The position numbers and the translations under genes were made by a program. This document shows positions 3-11,793 of a DNA stretch of 11,793 bases, piece by piece. This DNA is from an uncultured bacterium (GTDB lineage: Bacteria > Bacillota_I > Bacilli_A > RF39 > UBA660): NCBI GenBank assembly GCA_905215145.1, contig CAJMOW010000032.1:1-11793 (forward strand), read 5' to 3'. The notes under the pieces were generated by a model. It was not told the DNA's origin. It saw only the letters and a list, made by a program, of their open reading frames with translations, and ran no database searches. Numbering within the stretch: position 1 is the first letter of the stretch; every line of letters begins with the position of its first letter.

Positions 3-428
3 AATGTTGCTACAGGATTAAAGAGTTTCTTTGCATTATCTAACTTATATAATACTAGATTTAAACAAGTTTATGATAGTATTGTAAATAGAGATTTTGA
101 TACAACTAGACAACTTTTAAGTAGATATTCATTTATTAAAGGTTCTCAACGTAATGGAACAGAACAATTAATTACATTAGCAAATGTAGATTTTTCTATG
201 TTTGAAAATGATCCTGAATGAATTTCTAAATATGCAGTTCCTGCAGATATTGCAAATAATATTATTCAGCTAATAGACTTCCAAAGAAGATTAACTGATA
301 AATCTCTTGATATGGGAGAGTTACTGAATGCTGCAACAGATAATGCTAAGGAGTTAATTCTTAAGAAAATTAATGCAGACTCTAATTGAGTTGATCTTTA
401 TGTATATAGTTTAATGGAGAGGACTTAA
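3..428 (+). CDS. Large virion-type protein, N-terminal part missing (upstream fragment of a frameshifted gene)
   Basis: The reading frame is open at the left window edge and runs 141 codons to a TAA at 426-428. It reads through TGA codons at 219 and 387, both of which fit Trp (contexts DPEWIS and DSNWVD). The visible part is helical and includes the stretch AATDNAKELILKKINA, which I associate with the giant virion/RNA-polymerase-associated proteins of crAss-like phages; this is recognition, not a search. The frame ends just where the neighbouring frame begins to read as sensible protein. The text DLYVYSL continues naturally into NGEDLRRIGDLMVS in frame 2, so this fragment and the CDS at 446-2803 are probably one gene broken by a missing base (about 405-425). 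The alternative is a genuine gene end followed by a new start at 446. No catalytic motif is visible in this part. Confidence 0.75.
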
Positions 429-445
429 GAAGAATTGGAGATTTA

Positions 446-2803
446 ATGGTATCTGAAGAAGTTACTAAACTTGTATCGGAATATAATACAAATCTTTGAA
501 CAGATCCAATTCCAAAAAATAAAATTCATTTCATTGATCAAGCTATTGATGATCCTTCAAGATATGCAGTTTATAAACCAAATGCATCTGAAGCTGATAT
601 TAAAAAAGCAAATGAGAGAACTGAAATTTTATTTAAAACATTAAAGAAGAAAGCTAAAGGTGCAGAAGAAATTAGAATTCTAGGTAGATTATTAAAAATT
701 AATCAAGGACTTCCTACAGATAAATGAGGAAAGTATTCTTATATTAAGGGAATTGAAACATTTATTAATGATAAGTTTAAAGATGAAATTGGAGAGAAAT
801 TTAATCTACTAAAGTTTGCTGCTAATGAAGAATACAGATTACAACAAATTGATAACTATGAAAAAGTTAAGACTACATTTAATATATTAGATGTTATAGC
901 TAGTGTTCCACACTTCAAAGAAATGTTTAATATTCTAAGTGTTGATAATGAAGTTCTTAATCGATTATCAGTTAGAAATCAAGTTGAATCTATTGTTATA
1001 GATGAAACTACTCCTAAAAGAGGAAGTAAGTTATCTATAGAAGAATTTAGACAAACTAGAAATAATATTGATGATTTCTTAATTGATTCATGAATTAAAA
1101 CTAAAAATTTAAGTTTTCAAGTTCCAGTTAATCAGAAATATAAGGTAGAAAATTCTATTTTAATTAATAAAGATGAAAACTTTATAATTAATCTAGACAG
1201 TAAGGATAATATTGATTCATTTAGAATGTATATTGAGGATTATATTATTCCTACACTTAAAGAAAAATTACCTGATAATGCATTTATTAAATATTTATGC
1301 TTTGGATTAAAAACTGATTCAGAAGGTAAGGAAAGAGGTTTTTATAAACTTCCATTTAATATGATGCAGATAGATAATAGTCAAAAGACTAAAGCTCTTT
1401 ATGAACAAATTTTACGGGATTTTAATAGTTTAAATAAAGTTACGATTCCTGAGTTTGGAGCTCTAAATCCTGTTAATGCCTTTTATTTATATAACTTAAT
1501 TGTTAATAAAGATGGTTTTGGGCAGGCTTCATTAACTCGTTTATTTGAGGACTTAGTAGCAAGCGGAGATAATTCATTATGGGTTGTTGATTATAATAAT
1601 TGAATTGACCAACAAAATCCACAAGAACTTGCAAATACGTTCCTAAAACGAGATCCAAATGATAGTATGGCAGAAAGAGCAGAAGCAGTACTTATCAATG
1701 CCGCAAATGAAAATGTTGAAACTATTGGATTTAAATCTGAAGAAAATACTTCTTTAGATAGAGATTATAACGATTCAACTATAGATACTACTAAACCAAT
1801 ATTAGTATCTGATGGAAATGAGCAGTATAGACAAGTAAGATTCAATATTCCTAAAACAGATATATCTGTCGAAGAAGCTTTAAAAGTTGCTAAAATTATT
1901 GAAGTTGCAGAAACAAAAGCAGATAAAAATAATGAAGATATTGTTTCTTACATTGATTTTGACTATTCTACAGAATGAGGTATAACTGAAAGTGTAGCAG
2001 AGTTATTTGATGAAGAATATGATCAAGGAGTATATGCTGTAACTGATAAACTAATAGGTGAACATAACATATTAGTAGACGAGTTTAATAGTACTAATAC
2101 ATCTTCTAAAAATCTTATATCTAGAACTCTAAAACATATTATCTTTAATTCAGGAGCTTTTGTTAGAACTGATCCAAATCAACTTACTTTATTTAATAAT
2201 GGACCAACCAAATTCTATGACTTAAAAACTCCAATGTCTACTAAGATTACAGAATTAGTAAAAAATGTAAATTCTTTACAAAATATAAGATTAGTAACAG
2301 ATCAGGATGTAATTAATGAAGACACTGCAACTAAAAATGCAAAAGGATTTATTAAAGAAGGAATAATTTATATTAATATTGATAGAGCTACAGATGATAC
2401 TCTAATTCATGAATTCTCACATCTATACCTAGCAGATGCTAGAAATATGTATGCTGAGTCTTATTATAAGATTCTAGGTAATATACAAGATACTGAATTA
2501 TGAAATAGAATGCGACAAAATCCTTATTATAAAAATAAGAAAGGATCTGACTTTGATGAAGAAGTTTTAGCAACTATGATTACAGACTATTATAATGGAT
2601 ATATTAAATCTGATGCAGAATTAAAAATTATAGATAAAATTCTTTCAATTGCTAATCCTGAACTTAAAACTATTATTAATAGTGGAGAAATCATGCCATT
2701 CTATGATAGTTTTATTCATGAAAACTATAAACTTAGTCAAAAAGTAGCTACAGTCAAGAATAAATTAATGAATGATGATATTATAAAAGAAGATTGTAAA
2801 TAA
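446..2803 (+). CDS. Giant virion-type protein with C-terminal HEFSH zincin-like metallopeptidase motif (downstream part of frameshifted gene)
   Basis: Read with TGA=Trp this is one frame of 785 codons ending in TAA. It passes six in-frame TGAs (497, 725, 1091, 1601, 1976, 2501) and has one TGG. Most of the protein is unrecognised and helical, with an acidic, probably flexible stretch around residues 430-445. Near the C-terminus a zincin-type motif HEFSH lies at residues 655-659 in the context DTLIHEFSHLYLA. An acidic pair E705-E706 (DFDEEVLATM), 46 residues later, is a candidate third zinc ligand, so a Zn-dependent peptidase is a reasonable inference. The ATG at 446 has a GGAG about 6 bases upstream. 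However, frame 2 is open back to 410 and reads as protein there, so 446 may be an internal Met of a longer product that includes 3-428. The gene overlaps the next one by one base (TAATG at 2801-2805), suggesting coupled translation. Confidence 0.85.
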
Positions 2804-5800
2804 TGGCAAGAAATTGTACATACGAAATTACGATAAACGGTGAAAAGAAAGTGTTCAACTCCGAAATGGAGTTGGACACGTTTCTTGACAACTACGTTCA
2901 AAATATGGTAGTTGATAATGTTGATGCAACACTACAAATAGATCAACAACAAGTCACTGTAGACAAAATAAGTGAAGCTATAAAAAAATATAAATCACTT
3001 GCTACAGAGTTTGAAATAACAAATGAAGACGGAGAAAAGGAAATTGCTTTAAAATTAGATAAATCAATGGGTGTTACTAAGTTCCTTACAACCTATGGAG
3101 ATCCTTTTGATTTAGCTAAAGTATTAGTTACAAAATTTAATCTTGAAGAGTATCTGAAAAGAGAAAAAGAAAGACTAATGAAAAAAGGCATGACTTCGAA
3201 CGAAGCAGATAAATATTTGGAGGATCTACAAAAGAGTTGAACTCAACTAACCGATTATGGTACAGAAGTACATAAACTTTTTGAATCTGTAATTAATCCT
3301 GAAATAGAATATACTCCAAAATTATTAAATGAAGAGCAAGTATCATTGTTACAAAACCAATTAAGAGATTTTATAGAAGACACTAAAGAAAAATTTGGAA
3401 GAGACTGTAAATTCATTACTGAAATACCAATTGTTTCTGAAGATATAGCTGAACCCTATAAAGCAGCAGGATTAAATTCAATTAATGGTAGAATTGACTT
3501 ATTAATTGTAGATAAAAATGGTAATGCTCATATTCGAGATTTTAAAGTATCTCGAAAAGCAGTAGGAGCTTGAGATGAAACTAGAAATGCATTATTAAAT
3601 AATGTATGAGCTTCTACTAAAAAATTAGGTGCAGCATATCAGTTAAACTTCTATAAAGCTATGTTAGAACAACAAGGTATTAATGTAGCTACAGTAGGAA
3701 TTATTCCTGTTAAACTTGATATTGATTATAAAAAAGATAATTCAGGAAATGATAATTTATCTCAAATTGATAATTTATCGAGTGTATACATTGATTCTGA
3801 TAATATTATAGTAAATCCATCTAATACAATTGGAAAATATTATGATAGAGTTAGAGAAATTATTCCTATTAGACGTTTAACAGATTCATTTGATATTATT
3901 AAAACTATTGAAGAACCTATGAGTAAGTTCTTTCCTAATTATGAACTATCTTCAAAAGTTCAAAGAAAGAACGCAAACTTTAAGTTTTATAAAGAAAAAA
4001 TCGTTCAATATATTAGTTCTTCTGCTCCTGAAGCAGGATATGGAAAATATAGATTCTGAAATGAATATAAACCTAAAGATTCTGTAAAAAGTAGGTGAGA
4101 ATATGCTCAAACGGAAGAAGAACTTGATAAAAAGTTAGAGGACTATATAAAAAGTATTAATGAGCGACGTGGAAATGAGTTAGCTGATATTGCTCAGGAT
4201 ATTATAAATGTCCAGCAGGGATCGATGGATATTAACGATATTGCAAAGGATGATCCATATAAAGGAGACTTTTTACGTAGACATATTGAAAAATATATTG
4301 AAGGAGAATGGCAATTTGAAAATAATCCATCATTTATTTCTGCAGGTTTACTAGTATTTACAAAAAATAAAGTATTAGAAATAGTATCTATTACAAATAA
4401 TGTTACTCATCAAACAGTTAAACTTGAAAAGGGAACAAATATTTTAGGTTCAACAATAGCTAATCGAGATGTTGATGAACATAAAATAATGTCTGCGACA
4501 AATGGAAATATTGACTTAATTAAAGTAATGGCATTACTAAATAGCGATGCTATTAAATATGAAAATTATCGAATTAATAAAATTGAAAGTATTAATATTT
4601 GGCAACAAACTGGTTCAGAGCAATATTTTGATAAGTTATATGATAACTTTGTAGAATTATGTAAAATACACAATGTTCCTATAAATCTTAAAAGATCAAA
4701 CTTTAGTTCAACTCTTGAATCTGTGGTAAGTACAATTACTGATATATGTGGTCCTGAAAAACTAAAACATATTGGGAATTGAGCTGTTACATTTAGTGCT
4801 GATGATGTTGTTAAGGGTGGAGAATTTCTAAAAAATAGAATGGAAGAACTTAGGAAACTGGATAACGCTCAGGGATTGCGTAAAGCAATACATACTGGAC
4901 AATGAAATTTTGATGATCCTTTACAAACTTCTTATATGTTACTTGGAAAAGCTCTTAACAAAGTAAGGGGATATGAAGTTTATATTGAACCAGACCCTGC
5001 AAAATGAGTTAGTGTAACAGGTAGTTTTCACGCAGGAACTAATATTACAAGTATTAATAATTCTCCTTCATTAACAGCTCAAGAAGTTGGACGTATTGTT
5101 GCAGTAACAGAAACTAAGATACGTAGACAAGAATTAGCTTGGGATTCTAAGATTAGAAAAGTATTTAAGGAATTTTATAAATTTAAAGATCAAAACCGTT
5201 TAATAGGTGGAGAAGTAAAATATTTTGATAATCTATTTAGAAGAGATGAAAATGGTAATATTACAAAAGATTTTATGTTAAAAGACATTAATGATAGTTC
5301 TTTAGCTAAAGAAGAAAAAGCGTTAATAAAAACATTTACAGAAATTGTAAACCAACTTCGTTTTGAAGGAAATCCTGGACGTTATCAACAAGCAATAGAA
5401 GACGGAACTTATTATCAAGTTCCTGTAACTATTGGTTCTATGAAGTCTCAATTCCATAATAAAGGTTTTAAAGAAGGTCTTAAAATGGAGTATCAAGAAG
5501 TTACTAATATGTTAAGGCTGTTTGAGGAACAAATGAAGGATTTTGATCTTGCTAAAGATGCGCAAAGAGTATATAACAAATTTAAAATTGGAAATGATAC
5601 CCGAGAGCAAATTATATCAAATCATGGAATAAATAGTCTTGAAACTCAACTCGAAGATTTATTAAGAAGCTATATTCATGCATATGTTGCAGAAGCAGAA
5701 TACAATGATATTATTCCTCAAATTCAAGGAATTAAAATAGCATTACAGTATAATCAAGCAATGTATGGACAAGAAGCAGAAAACTTACTTGAATTTCTTG

Positions 5801-7239
5801 ATAAGTATCTAACAGTTAATATCTATAATAAACCTATTATGGATAAAGGTTTACAACCTGTTTATAAAACTTTAGCTGCAATTAAGAAATTTACTACTGC
5901 TACTGCTTTAGGTCTTAACTTAAGATCTGGACTTCGAGAAATGATGCAAGGTATGTGAATTCATATTAGTAGAGCTATGACAAATGCTTATGGAAAAGAT
6001 CAATTTTCTGGAAAGGATTTAGCTGAAGCTTGAGGAATTATCTTTAAAGATAGTCCAAAGCGTATTGCTACTTTAACAAAAGTTGAAGCTTTAAATGCAG
6101 ACTTTGGTATGGCTAATATGGACGCCGACATAGTTCAAAAAGAACTCAGTCAATCTCGTAATGGTATTAAGAACTTTAATTCTGATATGTTATATGTTTG
6201 TAATAGAGCTCCTGATGTATATCATAGAATGGGCTTATTAATTGCAAAAATGATTCATGATGGATGCTGAGAAGCATATAGTTTAAATTCAGATGATGAA
6301 TTAGTATATGACTTTAAGAAGGATAAACGTTTTAATGTGTTTACTGCTGCAGGAGCTGATGTAAATTCTGAAGCTTATAAGAGACAAGAAGGATTATATG
6401 AAGCTTATAGACAGCAATTCAATCAAGAAGGATGAAATATTGAAAAAGGACAACCGTTACCTAGAGCCTATACTGTTAGAGAAGCAACAAGTATTAAGTC
6501 TTTTGCAGAACTTTGTTTTGGACACTATGATAAAAATACTCAGATGCTTGCTAAAAGTATGTTTATGGGAGCTATGATGTTACAATTCCGTACATTCCTT
6601 TCTGCTAAACTTGAACAATGGATTCTTAAACCTGGAACTTATGATCAAGGTAAGTTTGTAGAAAAATTTGATGAAAATGGAGTTCGTTATGTAATGATTC
6701 AATCAACAGGAGAAAATGGGTTACCTACTACAAGAGTTGATCTTGAAACAAATGTAAAAGAAGGAGAAACAGCTACTCCTTATGTAGAATGGCAAGGAAG
6801 ATTTATTGAAGGTATTGCTTATTCTATGATTGATTTTCTAAAAGCTATAGGTAAAATGGATTATAATGAATTTAAAGCATTATGAGCTAATCCAACTAAA
6901 AAGGCTAATTTTTATTTATTCTTAACTGATTTAATATTTATGAGTCTAATAATGTGGATGATATATGCAGTATTCCTTTCAGAAGAAAATAAAGAAGAAT
7001 TAGGAGCATTAGGACACTTAGGAGCTATGGCTTTATATACATCATTTCAAGATGGTCCAATTCAAAATATTGTTGCACAATTTGCAAGAGACTTAAATCC
7101 ACCTGCATACTCTATTATTAAGAATATTGTAAATCAAAGTACAGCTGTTATTACTGGAGATAAAAATCTCTGGGAAGGAGCTACAAGTACATTTGGATTT
7201 ATGAGTGATCTTAAGTATATTGGAGATAAATTAGATTAA
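2803..7239 (+). CDS. Giant 1478-aa virion-type protein with embedded RecB/Cas4-like PD-(D/E)XK nuclease domain
   Basis: This is a single frame of 1478 codons when TGA is Trp: 13 TGAs (3238, 3571, 3607, 4057, 4096, 4780, 4903, 5005, 5956, 6031, 6268, 6433, 6883) and 7 TGGs, ending in TAA. Residues about 150-290 carry the full motif set of RecB/Cas4-like nucleases. These are H157 in GTEVH, E207 in TEIPI, D232 in NGRIDLL, D246-x-K248 in IRDFKVS, and Q280xxxY284 in QLNFY. The rest is mostly helical and unrecognised. A hydrophobic segment at about 1371-1392 (ends in MWMIYAVFL) could cross or insert into a membrane. The start ATG overlaps the upstream stop. The size, tandem arrangement and recoding fit the giant packaged proteins of crAss-like phages, which probably enter the host with the DNA; that role is inferred. 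No RNA polymerase DxDGD motif is visible. The operon ends here at a terminator. Confidence 0.9.
2851..2914 (+). other. Two tandem RNA hairpins inside the start of the giant nuclease-containing gene
   Basis: The first hairpin pairs 2851-2862 (GTGTTCAACTCC) with 2868-2879 (GGAGTTGGACAC). It has 12 base pairs including one U-G and a 5-nt GAAAT loop, unusually stable for this AT-rich sequence. The second pairs 2889-2895 (CAACTAC) with 2908-2914 (GTAGTTG) around a 12-nt loop. Both stems share CAACT/AGTTG arms, so the 3' arm of the first can alternatively pair with the 5' arm of the second. They begin 48 bases after the start codon. The structure is read directly; a role in translation control, pausing or mRNA processing is only a guess. 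Confidence 0.5.
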
Positions 7240-7343: not shown

Positions 7344-7652
7344 TTAAAGATCAACACCTGGTAATATTATATTTTCGCTCTTAGAATAATCAATAAATAT
7401 ATGCCAAACAAAGAGTCCGTTTTCAGTTATACATGAACCAACATATAATTTATTACTAGCATCAAAAGCTTGACCAGTACCAATTATATAAACATCAACC
7501 TCTATTGTTGATTTATCATCTGTATCTATTATAGCTCAAATTGTAGGTGTATTTCTTTGGCTATCAACATATAAAATTTCTGCACTACTAGGTAACTTAA
7601 TCGTTTGAGGATAAGTAAAATCTAGAGGATATTTATATATAATTTTATTCAT
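7344..7652 (-). CDS. DUF7352-like small phage protein, 102 aa
   Basis: The gene runs from ATG (7650-7652) to TAA (7344-7346). It contains one TGA read as Trp (codon 39, 7536-7538, TIWAII) and one TGG (LFVWHIF). The pattern MNKIIYKYPLDF...QTIKLPSSAEIL...TPTIWAIID...IIGTGQAF...LYVGSC...GLFVWHIF matches a small beta-rich phage family I know as DUF7352; its function is unknown. That family has an aromatic residue, normally Trp, at the position of the in-frame TGA, which supports the recoding. The start overlaps the stop of the upstream zinc-ribbon gene (TAATG), so translation is likely coupled. It is the last gene of the minus-strand operon. Confidence 0.8.
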
Positions 7653-7816
7653 TATTTCTTAGCTTTTTTACCGCCATTACAAATGGTACAAGTAGAAGTA
7701 CCTGATTTCTCTCCAATATTAAAAACACGAATAAATTTTCCGTATTTTTCATCTTGAAACTCATGTGTAATTTTATTATCTGCGCAGTTTTTACAAAACT
7801 TAATTTCAGTAGCCAT
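7652..7816 (-). CDS. Small zinc-ribbon-like protein, 54 aa
   Basis: This short frame runs from ATG (7814-7816) to TAA (7652-7654). It encodes four cysteines in two CxxC knuckles: C8/C11 (FCKNC) and C43/C46 (CTIC), followed by a basic tail KKAKK. This is the layout of a zinc ribbon that could bind nucleic acid or protein; no specific family is recognised. It overlaps the dNMP kinase gene by 17 bases upstream and DUF7352 by one base downstream, so it looks like a genuine member of the operon. It has no Trp codon, so the code does not affect it. No clear Shine-Dalgarno sequence is seen, as is common in Bacteroidota phages. Confidence 0.75.
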   Translation of the reverse strand: MATEIKFCKNCADNKITHEFQDEKYGKFIRVFNIGEKSGTSTCTICNGGKKAKK

Positions 7817-8525
7817 ATACAATATTTTTACATTTATTAAATAATTCTTTTAATGTACCATTATTTACTAACGATATATCAAATTTATGTTTTTTATAAA
7901 GAGTATCTAGTTCTCTTTCTGAAGAATGTAAACCTATACTACAACCTTTTCTTGTTACATGAATAATAAAGGCATTGTATTCTTTTACTACTTCATTTTC
8001 AATTGCAAATCTTTGATCTGCAATTACAATATTACTTTTATTTCCACTTTGAAGTGTTGAATATATTCATAATTTATCTCCAAAATATTTACGCATTATA
8101 TCTGTACCAAAATATTGTAATATTTGTCTAATAGATAAATTATATTCTATAGCTAAATTTCTATTTTCTTTTTTTAATTCTCTAGCGAATACTTTATCTG
8201 TAGGTTCATTTCCAAAAGTTTTTACTCTACTATCGTAAAGTAAAAACTTCTGAAAATCAAAATGATAATATTCTTTAAATTCTCTATCATCAAACTTACT
8301 CTTATCTACATTCATCATAATAGATAACATTTCCTTTAGTTTATCTGCATAATGTACTATCTTTCAACGCTTTGAAATCATAAACGGTACAGGAGTAAAA
8401 TTTAATGCAGAAGCAATATTATAAGAATGTAAACAAGTTGGAGTATTTAATAAATAGTTTAGATATTTAGCAACTTCATCTTTTCCACTTCCTTTAAAAC
8501 CTTGAATAGCTATTATATTTTTCAC
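7800..8525 (-). CDS. Deoxynucleoside monophosphate kinase (T4 gp1-like), 241 aa
   Basis: dNMP kinases phosphorylate dNMPs to dNDPs for phage DNA synthesis. The frame starts with GTG (8523-8525) directly after the TAA of the upstream gene. No closer ATG would keep the P-loop. It reads through three TGAs as Trp (8364-8366, 8067-8069, 7806-7808) and ends in TAA at 7800. The N-terminus IAIQGFKGSGKDEVA is a P-loop at residues 9-15. It has Asp after the Lys, typical of the dNMP kinase family in place of the usual Ser/Thr. Further family-like blocks are HYADKLKEML, IRQILQYFGTDIMRK and IVIADQRFAIENE. Length matches the roughly 240-residue T4 enzyme. Read with the standard code, the gene would break into pieces and lose the P-loop. 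Its third TGA is the penultimate codon. Confidence 0.9.
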
Positions 8526-9725
8526 TTATTCTAATGTAAAATCGAAGTTCATAGGTATAGCATCAAGTTGCGACTTATGTTCAGCCCATTTCTTTTCAAA
8601 ACTTTTCTTGAGTTTGTCTATAACTATCTTTCTAGCCTTTTCTTTATCTGCATCATTTGTACTACTTTTATAAAGTTTATTTATAATATTATCAGTAATG
8701 CCACTATAAACCTCTCTTTCAGAAATTCCTAATGTATTTAAAATTTGTTGAAATCCTACACTTTTAAAAGCAGAATTACTTGTAATAGTATTCCAGTTAC
8801 TCATAAGTAGAATACCTACAGAACAAACTGAATCTAGAATATTATATCCAGAGAGTAATTTAATACCCATACCTACAACAGTAGGATCTTGAGAACCTAA
8901 CATTCCAGATAAAGATTTAAGATCGTCCTCTGTAAGATCAGACAAATTATTACTTACAAATTTATCTAATTCTGTATCATATATTACTTTCATATAATTA
9001 TTTAAAATATTATTAACTTGCTCATACTCTGAATTATCTGTAAAGAAACAGCATTTACCTGAATAAAATAATGTACAGTCTGCAGGAATAATTCCCTCAG
9101 CCATTACTGCTGAAGCAAACTGTTCAAGAGGATTTGAAGAGCTAGTATTTATCGCTTTATTAATAAAGTTGTTTAAGTCTTTAGTAGAACTACTTTGATA
9201 ACAAGCTCCAGGTTTATGATCAATTAGATAATAAGTATCTTCTGATGGAGAATAATATAATTTAATGTTTTTATCCCTTGGAGCACCTCCTGAACTATAT
9301 TGAGGCGTATATACACTATATTTTACTTTTGGCAGTATACAAACATCTGCTTTTGCAGCAGTTAAACTACGTTTTATAGTAGTAGCTTCGCTTAGTTTAA
9401 ATCGAGGATATTTAGATTTAGGATCAAAATATACTCTTTTTACTCCAGTTAGACTTGTTAAAGTTTTAGAAGAAATGATAGTTTCTATACTATCACTATC
9501 TCCTAAATACATACCAAATACTTTTTCTGCACAAAAAGGACTAGTATAATAGCAATCGTCTCCAATATGTTTTTTACTCCCATTAACATCATAAACAACA
9601 ATCATATCTGCAAGGCAAGTGTTACTTATGTTGTTATAACAGTAACCATTATTACTATTTCCTTGTCTTCTATAATAGTCACAAACAACTATTCTTAATT
9701 TTGTATCATTTAAATTAAATAACAT
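8526..9725 (-). CDS. Conserved phage protein of unknown function, 399 aa
   Basis: The frame runs from ATG (9723-9725) to TAA (8526-8528), one base after the ATPase stop and directly abutting the dNMP kinase start. I do not recognise a domain. The N-terminal part (about 1-110) is rich in Cys and Tyr (C15, C29, C37, C58, C64) and may bind metal, but the cysteine spacing is not a standard zinc finger. Residues about 75-150 include KYPRFKLSEATTIKRSLTAA. The C-terminal third looks helical and ends in a charged segment (DKEKARKIVIDKLKKSFEKK). It has no VWA MIDAS (DxSxS) motif, although MoxR ATPases often pair with VWA proteins. Position next to the MoxR-type ATPase suggests a partner or substrate adaptor; this is inference from context only. 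Both Trp codons are TGG and no TGA is in frame. Confidence 0.85.
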   Translation of the reverse strand: MLFNLNDTKLRIVVCDYYRRQGNSNNGYCYNNISNTCLADMIVVYDVNGSKKHIGDDCYYTSPFCAEKVFGMYLGDSDSIETIISSKTLTSLTGVKRVYFDPKSKYPRFKLSEATTIKRSLTAAKADVCILPKVKYSVYTPQYSSGGAPRDKNIKLYYSPSEDTYYLIDHKPGACYQSSSTKDLNNFINKAINTSSSNPLEQFASAVMAEGIIPADCTLFYSGKCCFFTDNSEYEQVNNILNNYMKVIYDTELDKFVSNNLSDLTEDDLKSLSGMLGSQDPTVVGMGIKLLSGYNILDSVCSVGILLMSNWNTITSNSAFKSVGFQQILNTLGISEREVYSGITDNIINKLYKSSTNDADKEKARKIVIDKLKKSFEKKWAEHKSQLDAIPMNFDFTLE

Positions 9726-9726
9726 A

Positions 9727-10509
9727 TTATATTAATTTTCTAGCTACTTTAGGATTTAATAACAATTTATTGCATCTTGTAGGATGATTTTTTTGGAGAG
9801 TTTTAATTAAACTGAAAATCAAATCCTCAGAAAATAACATCTTATCATGCTCAATAATTTTAAGAATTCTATCAACAGCTACTTCTGTTTTACTACCTTT
9901 TGTATCAAAATATAGATTTACAAAATTACAGAATCGAGTTGTTAAAACTGCAGCAATATCTGCACGATAGTTAGTACCATCATATACTTGTTTTGCTAAT
10001 TCTCCTTTAACATAATCCCAATCTTTATTTAACATTGTATCTGGGTCCATTAATTTATCTAACTTATTAGCAATAAATGTAGTAAATAAGTTTCCAATAA
10101 CGTTTTCTTCAGATGTAAAACATCCTTGAGCAATATTAAGAATTAAACCTAAAGTATTAGTATCAGACCAATCTTTAAAACCTGAAATAGTATTTGCAAA
10201 AGTTACTAAACTTCGTGGGTTAACTTTCTGAACTCCACCTTCCTTCTTCATAATTTCAGGATAAGAAAGAACGAAATTGATAAAACGTCCATCAATTCCT
10301 TCCTTTTCTGCCCAACGAGCCCATACATCTTTATCGAAACCTAATTCAAAACTAATGTACCGAGTCTTTTGAGCATTATCCATAGAGTTAACGTTATAAT
10401 CTCCATTATCTGGATTAGAAGTTAATATAATAGTACAATTAGGAGGTAATGACCAACTTATATATTCGCCTCTGTCCACCAACTCCATGGTAGCTTGTAT
10501 AAATCTAGG
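9727..10509 (-). CDS. MoxR-like AAA+ ATPase, exon 2 (C-terminal 260 aa)
   Basis: This exon continues the ATPase after a group I intron and ends in TAA (9727-9729). Its first codon is CCT (Pro) at 10507-10509. The ATG just upstream (10510-10512) ends in the intron's terminal G and is not a gene start. Joined to exon 1 the protein reads DDFNRAD-PRFIQATMEL, which aligns without gaps to the MoxR pattern DEINRAPPKTQSALLE. Visible motifs, in exon-2 numbering, are sensor 1 TSNPDN around residue 32, a probable arginine finger R50 (NAQKTRY), and sensor 2 R99 (VNPRSL). The fold is a hexameric AAA+ chaperone-like remodelling ATPase; the substrate in this phage is unknown. All five Trp are TGG. The following 399-aa gene starts one base after the stop. 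Confidence 0.9.
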   Translation of the reverse strand, partial: PRFIQATMELVDRGEYISWSLPPNCTIILTSNPDNGDYNVNSMDNAQKTRYISFELGFDKDVWARWAEKEGIDGRFINFVLSYPEIMKKEGGVQKVNPRSLVTFANTISGFKDWSDTNTLGLILNIAQGCFTSEENVIGNLFTTFIANKLDKLMDPDTMLNKDWDYVKGELAKQVYDGTNYRADIAAVLTTRFCNFVNLYFDTKGSKTEVAVDRILKIIEHDKMLFSEDLIFSLIKTLQKNHPTRCNKLLLNPKVARKLI

Positions 10510-10745
10510 CATTATTGTTATCGTATAGGCTCTTTATCCTATACTTCTACGTCTTTTCTTAGGTTATAACGTAGTTCAGACTATATCATCACTATATAAA
10601 TAGTGTAGCGCACTCGTGGTACTTTACTATCCATTCCTGGACTCCATGTACTAGTCGTTGAACTTTCTAATTATTACTAATTAGCTTAGCTGCTGATTGA
10701 CCTCCTCAGGCTTTTCCAGCAATTCACGCTATTTTATGCGGACCT

Positions 10746-11489
10746 CTAGATTTTATACTTTCATTTATATCCTCCTGCAGTAAGATTTTTTCTTATAGCG
10801 CGAGATATATTACAAATTTTTAGTTCTTTTTCAGCATCTGTTTTAGAATCTCACTCTTTAATAAAAACATTATCAAGTGAATATTGAATAACAGGTATTT
10901 TCTTATATTTCTTTTTTAGTTTAGAAAGATTTTCTTTTAATTCAAATGATCATCTATATCCACCAGCAGTATAACTACGATTATTACATACACTACATAT
11001 TGCAGTAGTATCTTGGTTAGTAGATATAGCTGCATCTGTTATCGATTTATAACTTTGAAGATATTTTCCTTCTAAACTATACTGATATACCATTTTTATA
11101 TTAACTGGAGAATGTGTCTCATAATATTTCTTTTTAGAGATACTTATTCTATGTTTATATTCTTTATCTCTAATGATATTCTCAGGGTCTAAAATATGAT
11201 TTATATAAGGTTTAATACTATTTATATAGTATTTTTCTCTACTAATTCTATTTTCCTCAAGACAAGTTTCTATAACTTCAAAATAAATATTATCAATGCC
11301 ATACTTGTTATACAAATTTTGCATAGTATGATTGTGATGTTTATTTTGTTTTAAAGTAATTAGATGTTGTCTTAATCTATGCTGAATATTTTTTGAACTT
11401 CCTATATATTCTTTATCGTGGATCTTTATTTTATAAATTCCACAAACTTTTTTATAAACTTTAATCTTTTGTAATGTTAGTTTTTCCAT
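10746..11489 (-). CDS. GIY-YIG homing endonuclease with two NUMOD-type DNA-binding modules, 247 aa
   Basis: This enzyme would cut intronless copies of the ATPase gene so that repair copies the intron in. It runs from ATG (11487-11489) to TAG (10746-10748) and reads three TGAs as Trp (10950-10952, 10851-10853, 10761-10763). The GIY-YIG catalytic domain spans about residues 14-97: G17-I18-Y19, Y28-I29-G30, R38 (or R40), H42, catalytic E85 in SREKYYIN, and N97. Two tandem NUMOD1-like modules follow, at about 133-180 and 199-243. Each has the plan (V/I)xQYSL...A...TAGGY(R/K)W, and each closes on a TGA-coded Trp. With the standard code the protein would stop after residue 179, keeping catalysis but losing the second module. 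The gene fills the P1 loop of the intron, and its last codons overlap the P10/guide region. No Shine-Dalgarno is evident; a possible promoter lies just upstream. Confidence 0.92.
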
Positions 11490-11505
11490 ATTTTTAAATT
11501 TATAT

Positions 11506-11536
11506 CAAAGATACTAAATTTATTCAGGGAAACAAA
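11506..11536 (-). promoter_or_regulatory. Possible Bacteroidota-type promoter for the homing endonuclease
   Basis: On the minus strand TTTG (11536-11533) is followed after 19 bases by TATCTTTG (11513-11506). This matches the Bacteroides housekeeping promoter, with TTTG at -33 and TAnnTTTG at -7. A transcript would begin close to 11499, leaving a short AT-rich leader before the ATG at 11489. A chance match is possible in such AT-rich DNA; a lone TAnnTTTG without a -33 box occurs elsewhere on this strand (7880-7887). Confidence 0.35.
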
Positions 11537-11556
11537 ACTTTACAATATATTTTTTA

Positions 11557-11793
11557 ATCCGCACGATTAAAGTCATCAAGAATTAGAATTGTGCCATTTT
11601 CATTTCGAGAAGTAGGAACCCATGCAGGAAGAGCGTATCCCATTCGAGATATATTATCTTTAATTCTATAACCCTCTCCAATATAAGAATCTAGTACATC
11701 TGCAGATACCCAAAGACATTCCTCATCCTTAATTACTATTTCATTTTCTACAACAGGCATTCCATCATCATCAAGTCTAGGACGCTCTGTACA
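11557..11793 (-). CDS. MoxR-like AAA+ ATPase, exon 1 (partial, N-terminus outside the window)
   Basis: Seventy-nine codons are visible and the frame is open at the right window edge, so the Walker A motif lies outside. The exon ends in the Walker B motif TILILDDFNRAD, a MoxR-type signature (usually DEINRA) with Asp in place of the second acidic residue Glu. The TAA directly after it (11554-11556) is intron sequence, not a real stop. The protein continues at 10509 after splicing, in phase 0. The internal ATG at 11758-11760 is unlikely to be the start because the same frame continues upstream without a stop and AAA+ proteins need about 100 more residues before Walker B. Both Trp here are TGG. 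Confidence 0.88.

Follow-up and report, generated by a model that had tools for sequence, protein, structure and literature searches.

A RecB/Cas4-class nuclease domain joined to a putative virion cargo body in a TGA-recoded, crAss-like phage

Results

Gene block and reading frame

The window (the whole stretch of 11,793 nucleotides analysed here) is of phage origin and uses TGA as a tryptophan codon. Its plus strand carries three frames and, within the third, a nuclease domain and a long C-terminal body:

3..428, plus strand: end of the upstream RNA polymerase protein, with its 5' end outside the window
446..2803, plus strand: P0002, 785 aa, RNA polymerase-linked zincin-like segment with HEFSH at 2408-2422
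2803..7239, plus strand: P0001, 1478 aa, translation table 4 with 13 TGA as Trp and stop TAA; 31 database homologues
3238..3735, plus strand: RecB/Cas4/MGME1-type PD-(D/E)XK nuclease domain, predicted, residues 146-311 of P0001
3271..3273, plus strand: H157, the motif histidine (31/31 aligned sequences)
3421..3423, plus strand: E207 (31/31)
3496..3498, plus strand: D232, in GxxD (31/31)
3538..3546, plus strand: D246-F-K248, the DxK motif (D246 and K248 each 31/31)
3640..3654, plus strand: Q280xxxY284, the QxxxY helix (31/31)
4093..7236, plus strand: mostly helical body, residues 431-1478, related to crAss001 gp49 and phi14:2 gp076 (hhalign, BFVD, AlphaFold)
6916..6972, plus strand: hydrophobic helix, residues 1372-1390, possible membrane segment (hydropathy)

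The standard code breaks all three plus-strand frames (3-428, 446-2803 and 2803-7239). The P0001 frame is broken under table 11 and runs through 1478 aa only if TGA encodes Trp, and the protein of that length claimed in a first-pass annotation of this DNA was confirmed under table 4. TGA accounts for 13 of its 20 Trp codons. The three TGA codons of the nuclease region (W146, W257 and W269) align with Trp in 30 of 30 homologues, although these database proteins may themselves have been translated with TGA as Trp. An unrecoded relative that is open under table 11, L016, also has Trp aligned at W146 and W269.

The minus strand (7344-11489) is recoded as well. It encodes a DUF7352 protein (one in-frame TGA), a deoxynucleotide monophosphate kinase (three), a GIY-YIG/NUMOD1 homing endonuclease (three), an ATPase-type frame (none) and a 399-aa protein (none) for which no significant family match was found. 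The ATPase-type gene, at 9727-11793 on the minus strand, may be interrupted by the ORF of the homing endonuclease (10746-11489); the upstream piece, at 11554-11793, gave no match to the ATPase, and a search against Rfam introns found none.

Gene order was read in eight recoded IMG/VR relatives (L001-L008) from the 15 loci found, and runs from a DxDxD RNA polymerase through the zincin-like segment to the nuclease protein. The protein directly upstream of the nuclease protein contains HExxH in all eight loci. In six of them DYDID or DFDID, the motif of the polymerase, is present as well, in the same chain, which is about 3000 residues long; in L002, and apparently in L006, the polymerase/zincin chain is split into separate frames, like that of the window. 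The window includes only the C-terminal end of the RNA polymerase, and the order beginning with DxDxD is the one seen in those six recoded relatives. Two pieces of P0002 match within residues 2450-3111 of the 3111-aa RNA polymerase protein of L008, and the 3-428 frame is 32% identical to residues 2115-2264 of the same protein, beyond its DFDID at 1926. In Carjivirus, the annotation likewise has a ‘zincin protease’ fused to an RNA polymerase-associated protein.

Phage lineage

A zeta group of crAss-like phages (proposed Echekviridae) has been described (PMC7886860, PMC12386605), and we took TGA recoding, a crassviral TerL and a genome of 145-192 kb as its marks. By these marks the window and its relatives may fit this group: the window is recoded, the crAss001 TerL matches seven of eight relatives' records (with in-frame TGA in all but MT835470), and six of the 15 relatives' contigs measure 157-204 kb, the others being shorter. 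The crAss001 major capsid protein matched one of ten records (E 9.5e-5, with internal stops). The tie of the relatives to crassviruses by direct search is thus through TerL only and not through the capsid protein.

The nuclease domain

By profile, motif and predicted fold, residues 146-311 of P0001 are a RecB/Cas4-class PD-(D/E)XK nuclease. The first-pass annotation had placed such a domain in the N-terminal third of the protein, for which 146-311 of 1478 is the better statement. Pfam PF12705 matches residues 148-293 (E 1.7e-5, 25.3 bits against a cut-off of 22). This family is less sensitive when used alone: it was listed for 12 of the 31 database homologues and was seen at the cargo domain in five of ten related records, above the cut-off in one. 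The ordered set H157, E207, D232, D246-x-K248 and Q280xxxY284 occupies every position claimed for it, and none of its seven residues varies across the 31 aligned sequences (P0001 and 30 of its 31 database hits, P0003 being excluded as 99% identical). The motif is thus kept in all the close homologues, though not in all more distant carriers. Taken alone, it makes a modest case; a motif-only pattern, written around the P0001 motif, was found in 28 of 2000 shuffles of P0001. The evidence independent of that pattern, namely the Pfam match, the 31/31 identity and the AlphaFold core, is strong.

The AlphaFold core comprises helices at 132-164, 177-198 and 271-290 and strands at 203-211, 226-236, 242-250 and 295-311, and matches RecB-class nucleases in the PDB. 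It contains the alpha-beta-beta-beta-alpha arrangement whose absence would have counted against the first-pass reading of a QxxxY-type, RecB/Cas4-like nuclease; with PF12705, the motif identity and the PDB matches, that reading held up. Of seven blocks into which P0001 was divided, this stretch is also one of the two best conserved, with 12.2% invariant columns at 146-311, 12.9% at 961-1260 and 1.0-4.3% in the five others. From its motif and modelled core, the domain presumably has metal-dependent nuclease activity. In Cas4, AddB and EXO5, a four-Cys iron-sulphur cluster frames the nuclease domain. Four such framing cysteines were not found in P0001, which has a single Cys (C202) within residues 100-430 and therefore no four-Cys iron-sulphur cluster.

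The body of P0001

AlphaFold models residues 431-1478 as one mostly helical body (pTM 0.82). A structure search of the PDB with this body gave no match at E up to 0.001. In BFVD, the first matches were a 1478-aa protein named ‘Exonuclease V’, with 91% identity across the body, and fragments of crAss-like virus proteins. Next came a cr111_1 protein annotated as a ‘putative RNA-polymerase subunit’ (E 4e-11), a 1421-aa ‘structural protein’ of Cellulophaga phage phi14:2 (S0A048, E 1.7e-9) and a structural protein of phi17:2 (R9ZWK0, E 2e-7). Further down, at E values between 1e-4 and about 0.02, are several proteins labelled ‘large polyvalent protein associated’, together with internal virion proteins of other phages.

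With the cr111_1, phi14:2 and phi17:2 proteins the TM-scores are low, at 0.31-0.48, and for that reason the link to gp49-type proteins rests on profile evidence too. The family's C-terminal alignment matched a seven-sequence gp49-type profile by hhalign (probability 96.5, E 7e-10, 644 columns), and gave no match to crAss001 gp50, phi14:2 gp077 or phi14:2 gp078 taken as single sequences. The family profile also aligns the body with those of cr1_1 (probability 93.3, E 2.7e-7) and L013 (probability 94.6, E 7e-8). Single-sequence HMM scores for this link are weak, from E 3.7e-7 for P0001 to 0.08 among the 15 of 31 members listed, which indicates that the P0001 family and the gp49-type groups are far apart. 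The profiles and predicted folds together point to a P0001 body that is remotely homologous to the gp49-type RNA polymerase-associated proteins. Near the C-terminus, hydropathy exceeds 1.6 within the last 200 residues in 26 of 31 family members; hydrophobic peaks are also present near the C-terminus of gp49, cr1_1, L012 and L013 and absent in L016. The helix at 1372-1390 could be a membrane segment of an ejected protein.

Other crassvirus carriers of the domain

The same domain was found in a second cargo protein. Residues 1711-1947 of crAss001 gp47 (AXQ62690, 2341 aa) match it by hhalign (E 4e-9) and HMM (1.7e-15), and the family profile detects it in cr85, cr106 and DAC15 and, weakly, in Dulem41. 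It was also found in the gp49-type proteins of cr1_1, cr4_1, L012 and L013. The domain thus sits either near the end of a gp47-type protein, where the metal site is changed, or ahead of a gp49-type body.

The seven motif residues are complete in 11 of 18 aligned carriers (eight zeta-type, L012, L013 and cr1_1), and cr4_1 has six plus an X at an in-frame stop. Among gp49-type carriers the motif is intact except in L016 (MT835470, 19989-24566), the unrecoded relative of P0001, which lacks E207 and D246, with the one X site of cr4_1 to be kept in mind. The gp47-type proteins (crAss001, cr85, cr106, DAC15 and Dulem41) keep D232, D246, K248 and Q280 and do not keep H157 and E207; Dulem41 also lacks Y284. 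In crAss001 gp47, the metal-site positions read D for H and N for E, the E207 column lying in a divergent stretch where the assignment depends on the alignment. The H site is GTSVD in 119 of the 120 gp47 relatives listed, out of 2270 found. The intact motif therefore goes with gp49-type carriers, whereas the nuclease-bearing protein that has been seen in virions is gp47, with its motif altered.

The counterpart in phage cr1_1 (L018, 11793-17816) is a 2007-aa protein that combines ART-PolyVal (residues 291-399, E 5.8e-10), HExxH (residue 517) and the nuclease in one chain.

A scan of frames of at least 200 residues, in stretches of 13 crass records, found the domain in six. It was not found in the scanned stretches of p-crAssphage, crAss002, cr3_1 and cr107_1 (Intestiviridae), cr127_1 (Crevaviridae), or cr111_1 and phi14:2 (Steigviridae). 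Overall, the cargo blocks of seven of 21 crass records gave no nuclease hit, so crassviruses in general do not need the domain. Sipho_Gp157, a family that several records annotate as a Gam-like host nuclease inhibitor, is present in five of the 21 crass records. It was present in five of the seven records with no detected cargo nuclease and in none of the 14 with one, which include L009 (known only from its match) and L016 (with its broken motif); the Fisher p of 0.001 overstates the case, since four of the five Sipho_Gp157 records are Intestiviridae and the events are not independent.

Virion evidence

Mass spectrometry has placed crAss001 gp45, gp46, gp47, gp49 and gp50 in virions (PMC10172136), and the same study proposes that the cargo exits before the DNA does, in a partly unfolded state. 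In phi14:2, gp076, gp077 and gp078 are marked as structural by MS/MS in the annotation of KC821624. The ‘virion-type’ label that the first-pass annotation gave P0001 as a guess gains support from homology to these virion proteins of crAss001 and phi14:2. P0001 combines in one chain the nuclease type seen in the gp47 cargo and the body type of the gp49 cargo, and because it joins parts of two cargo proteins in this way, packaging and ejection in this phage are a reasonable inference from homology.

Discussion

We consider it an evenly balanced proposition, built on sequence, models and analogy, that P0001 travels in the capsid, is ejected along with the virion RNA polymerase and trims DNA ends at the start of infection. 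In the sequence of events that we envisage, P0001 would enter the capsid as part of the virion RNA polymerase cargo and would leave it together with that polymerase; its metal-dependent nuclease would then trim ends, mainly single-stranded ones. MGME1, RecE, RecB, Cas4 and EXO5 prefer DNA ends or single strands, and by analogy P0001 may share this preference. The weakest step is the substrate, which would mainly be the phage's own incoming DNA or the template of the RNA polymerase. We place these first because the domain does not leave the polymerase block, where one or the other of two proteins carries it, and because it persists even where the metal site is altered; a weapon that had lost its edge should be lost.

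The strongest of the alternatives, although in our view an unlikely one, is an injected effector: the nuclease would be one warhead of a polyvalent-type cargo and would degrade host or competitor DNA soon after entry. The cr1_1 counterpart, with ART-PolyVal (Pfam E 5.8e-10), HExxH and nuclease in one 2007-aa chain, speaks for it, as do the lower fold matches of the body to ‘large polyvalent protein associated’ and internal virion proteins. Polyvalent proteins are also predicted to be injected with phage DNA (PMC5512222). However, the polyvalent effectors described there are varied domain sets, whereas the P0001-type domain stays with the RNA polymerase block and is retained in gp47 despite the altered H and E positions. 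The main text of PMC5512222, moreover, has neither RecB nor DEXK, and restriction endonuclease appears only in the title of a reference. The first-pass annotation had suggested an unusual weapon or processing factor. Its weapon part has to be qualified: a PD-(D/E)XK domain in a crAss-like transcription protein was already published in 2021 (PMC7886860), and the changed metal site of the Steigviridae gp47 fits a DNA-handling part of the RNA polymerase complex better than a dedicated weapon.

The bearing of the end-trimming reading can be pushed further, to a version that we hold to be decidedly doubtful. Here a RecB-type nuclease, shot into the cell as a functional component of the crassvirus virion RNA polymerase, would resect the incoming genome from its ends to expose single-stranded DNA as the starting place of that polymerase, and would be the first end-processing enzyme known to go ahead of a phage genome. 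Its carrier would have been switched between two cargo proteins, and the lineages without the domain would use Gam-like end protection.

Two further alternatives appear improbable to us. In one, P0001 is a packaging or head-completion nuclease that acts in the producing cell, its presence in virions being a by-product. There is a precedent in T4 gp4, a virion-associated protein of the restriction endonuclease fold with a DNase activity needed for packaging (PMC7824862). Another PD-(D/E)XK hit, however, lies 2.7-4.0 kb from TerL in seven relatives' records and is the better candidate for such a role, and some crassviruses have no detected cargo domain at all. In the other, P0001 would be a late protein that stays in the producing cell for recombination or the breakdown of host DNA and is never packaged. 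This would agree with the plain name Exonuclease V of the database protein that is 91% identical over the body, but the C-terminal body shares ancestry with gp49-type virion proteins and, in the relatives, the gene lies directly behind that of the RNA polymerase. A catalytically silent DNA-binding module of the RNA polymerase complex, finally, would accord with the altered H and E positions in the gp47-type proteins of crAss001, cr85, cr106 and DAC15 and with the loss of D246 in L016, and is very improbable, as the identity of seven motif residues in 31 of 31 sequences is hard to explain without catalysis.

From a biological perspective, crassviruses have been called the most abundant viruses in the human gut (PMC10172136). 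Should their cargo include an intact RecB-class nuclease, DNA processing, and not transcription alone, would begin with particle-borne proteins. The two alternative carriers, together with the altered metal site of some lineages, amount to a natural experiment. As crAss001 can be cultured, the question of a cargo nuclease is directly testable.

Comparison with known systems

The predicted core of the P0001 domain is common to MGME1, AddAB, RecB, AdnA, RecE, Cas4 and EXO5, which we take to have the same ordered motif. Identity to these proteins is 12-18% in the matches listed and, unlike them, the P0001 domain is embedded in a 1478-aa phage protein.

Among crassviruses, the body of P0001 is shared, by profile and predicted fold, with crAss001 gp49 and phi14:2 gp076, both of which adjoin an RNA polymerase gene. 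In contrast to P0001, no nuclease domain was found in crAss001 gp49 or in the phi14:2 cargo region. The homologous nuclease domain of crAss001 is in gp47, a virion protein (PMC10172136) that keeps the D, DxK and QxxxY elements; it differs from P0001 in placing the domain close to the C-terminus of another protein, with a HEAFH motif following it. The Suoliviridae proteins of cr1_1 (2007 aa) and cr4_1 (1803 aa) have the nuclease domain before a gp49-type body, as in P0001, and are encoded by the last genes before opposite-strand genes that include replication genes. Unlike P0001 they have extra N-terminal parts (ART-PolyVal and HExxH in cr1_1), and the identity of cr1_1 to P0001 is 33% over only 112 residues. 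The polyvalent proteins of Iyer et al. 2017 (PMC5512222) resemble P0001 in being large, multidomain, near virion genes and predicted to be injected with DNA. They are marked by at least two unrelated enzymatic domains per chain; the nuclease is the only enzymatic domain recognised in P0001.

The closest published case is that of Yutin et al. 2021 (PMC7886860), in which some crAss-like phages have a PD-(D/E)XK domain within a large transcription protein; it resembles P0001 in order, gene block and domain type. Their account of this case offers neither a motif analysis nor a connection to virion cargo and does not mention that different lineages have different carriers, and our literature search found no paper tying the crAss-like PD-(D/E)XK domain to virion cargo. 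Three observations are added here. Which of two cargo proteins bears the domain differs with the lineage; most gp49-type carriers have it intact, and those of gp47 type that were examined have it altered; and, by homology, both carriers appear to correspond to virion cargo.
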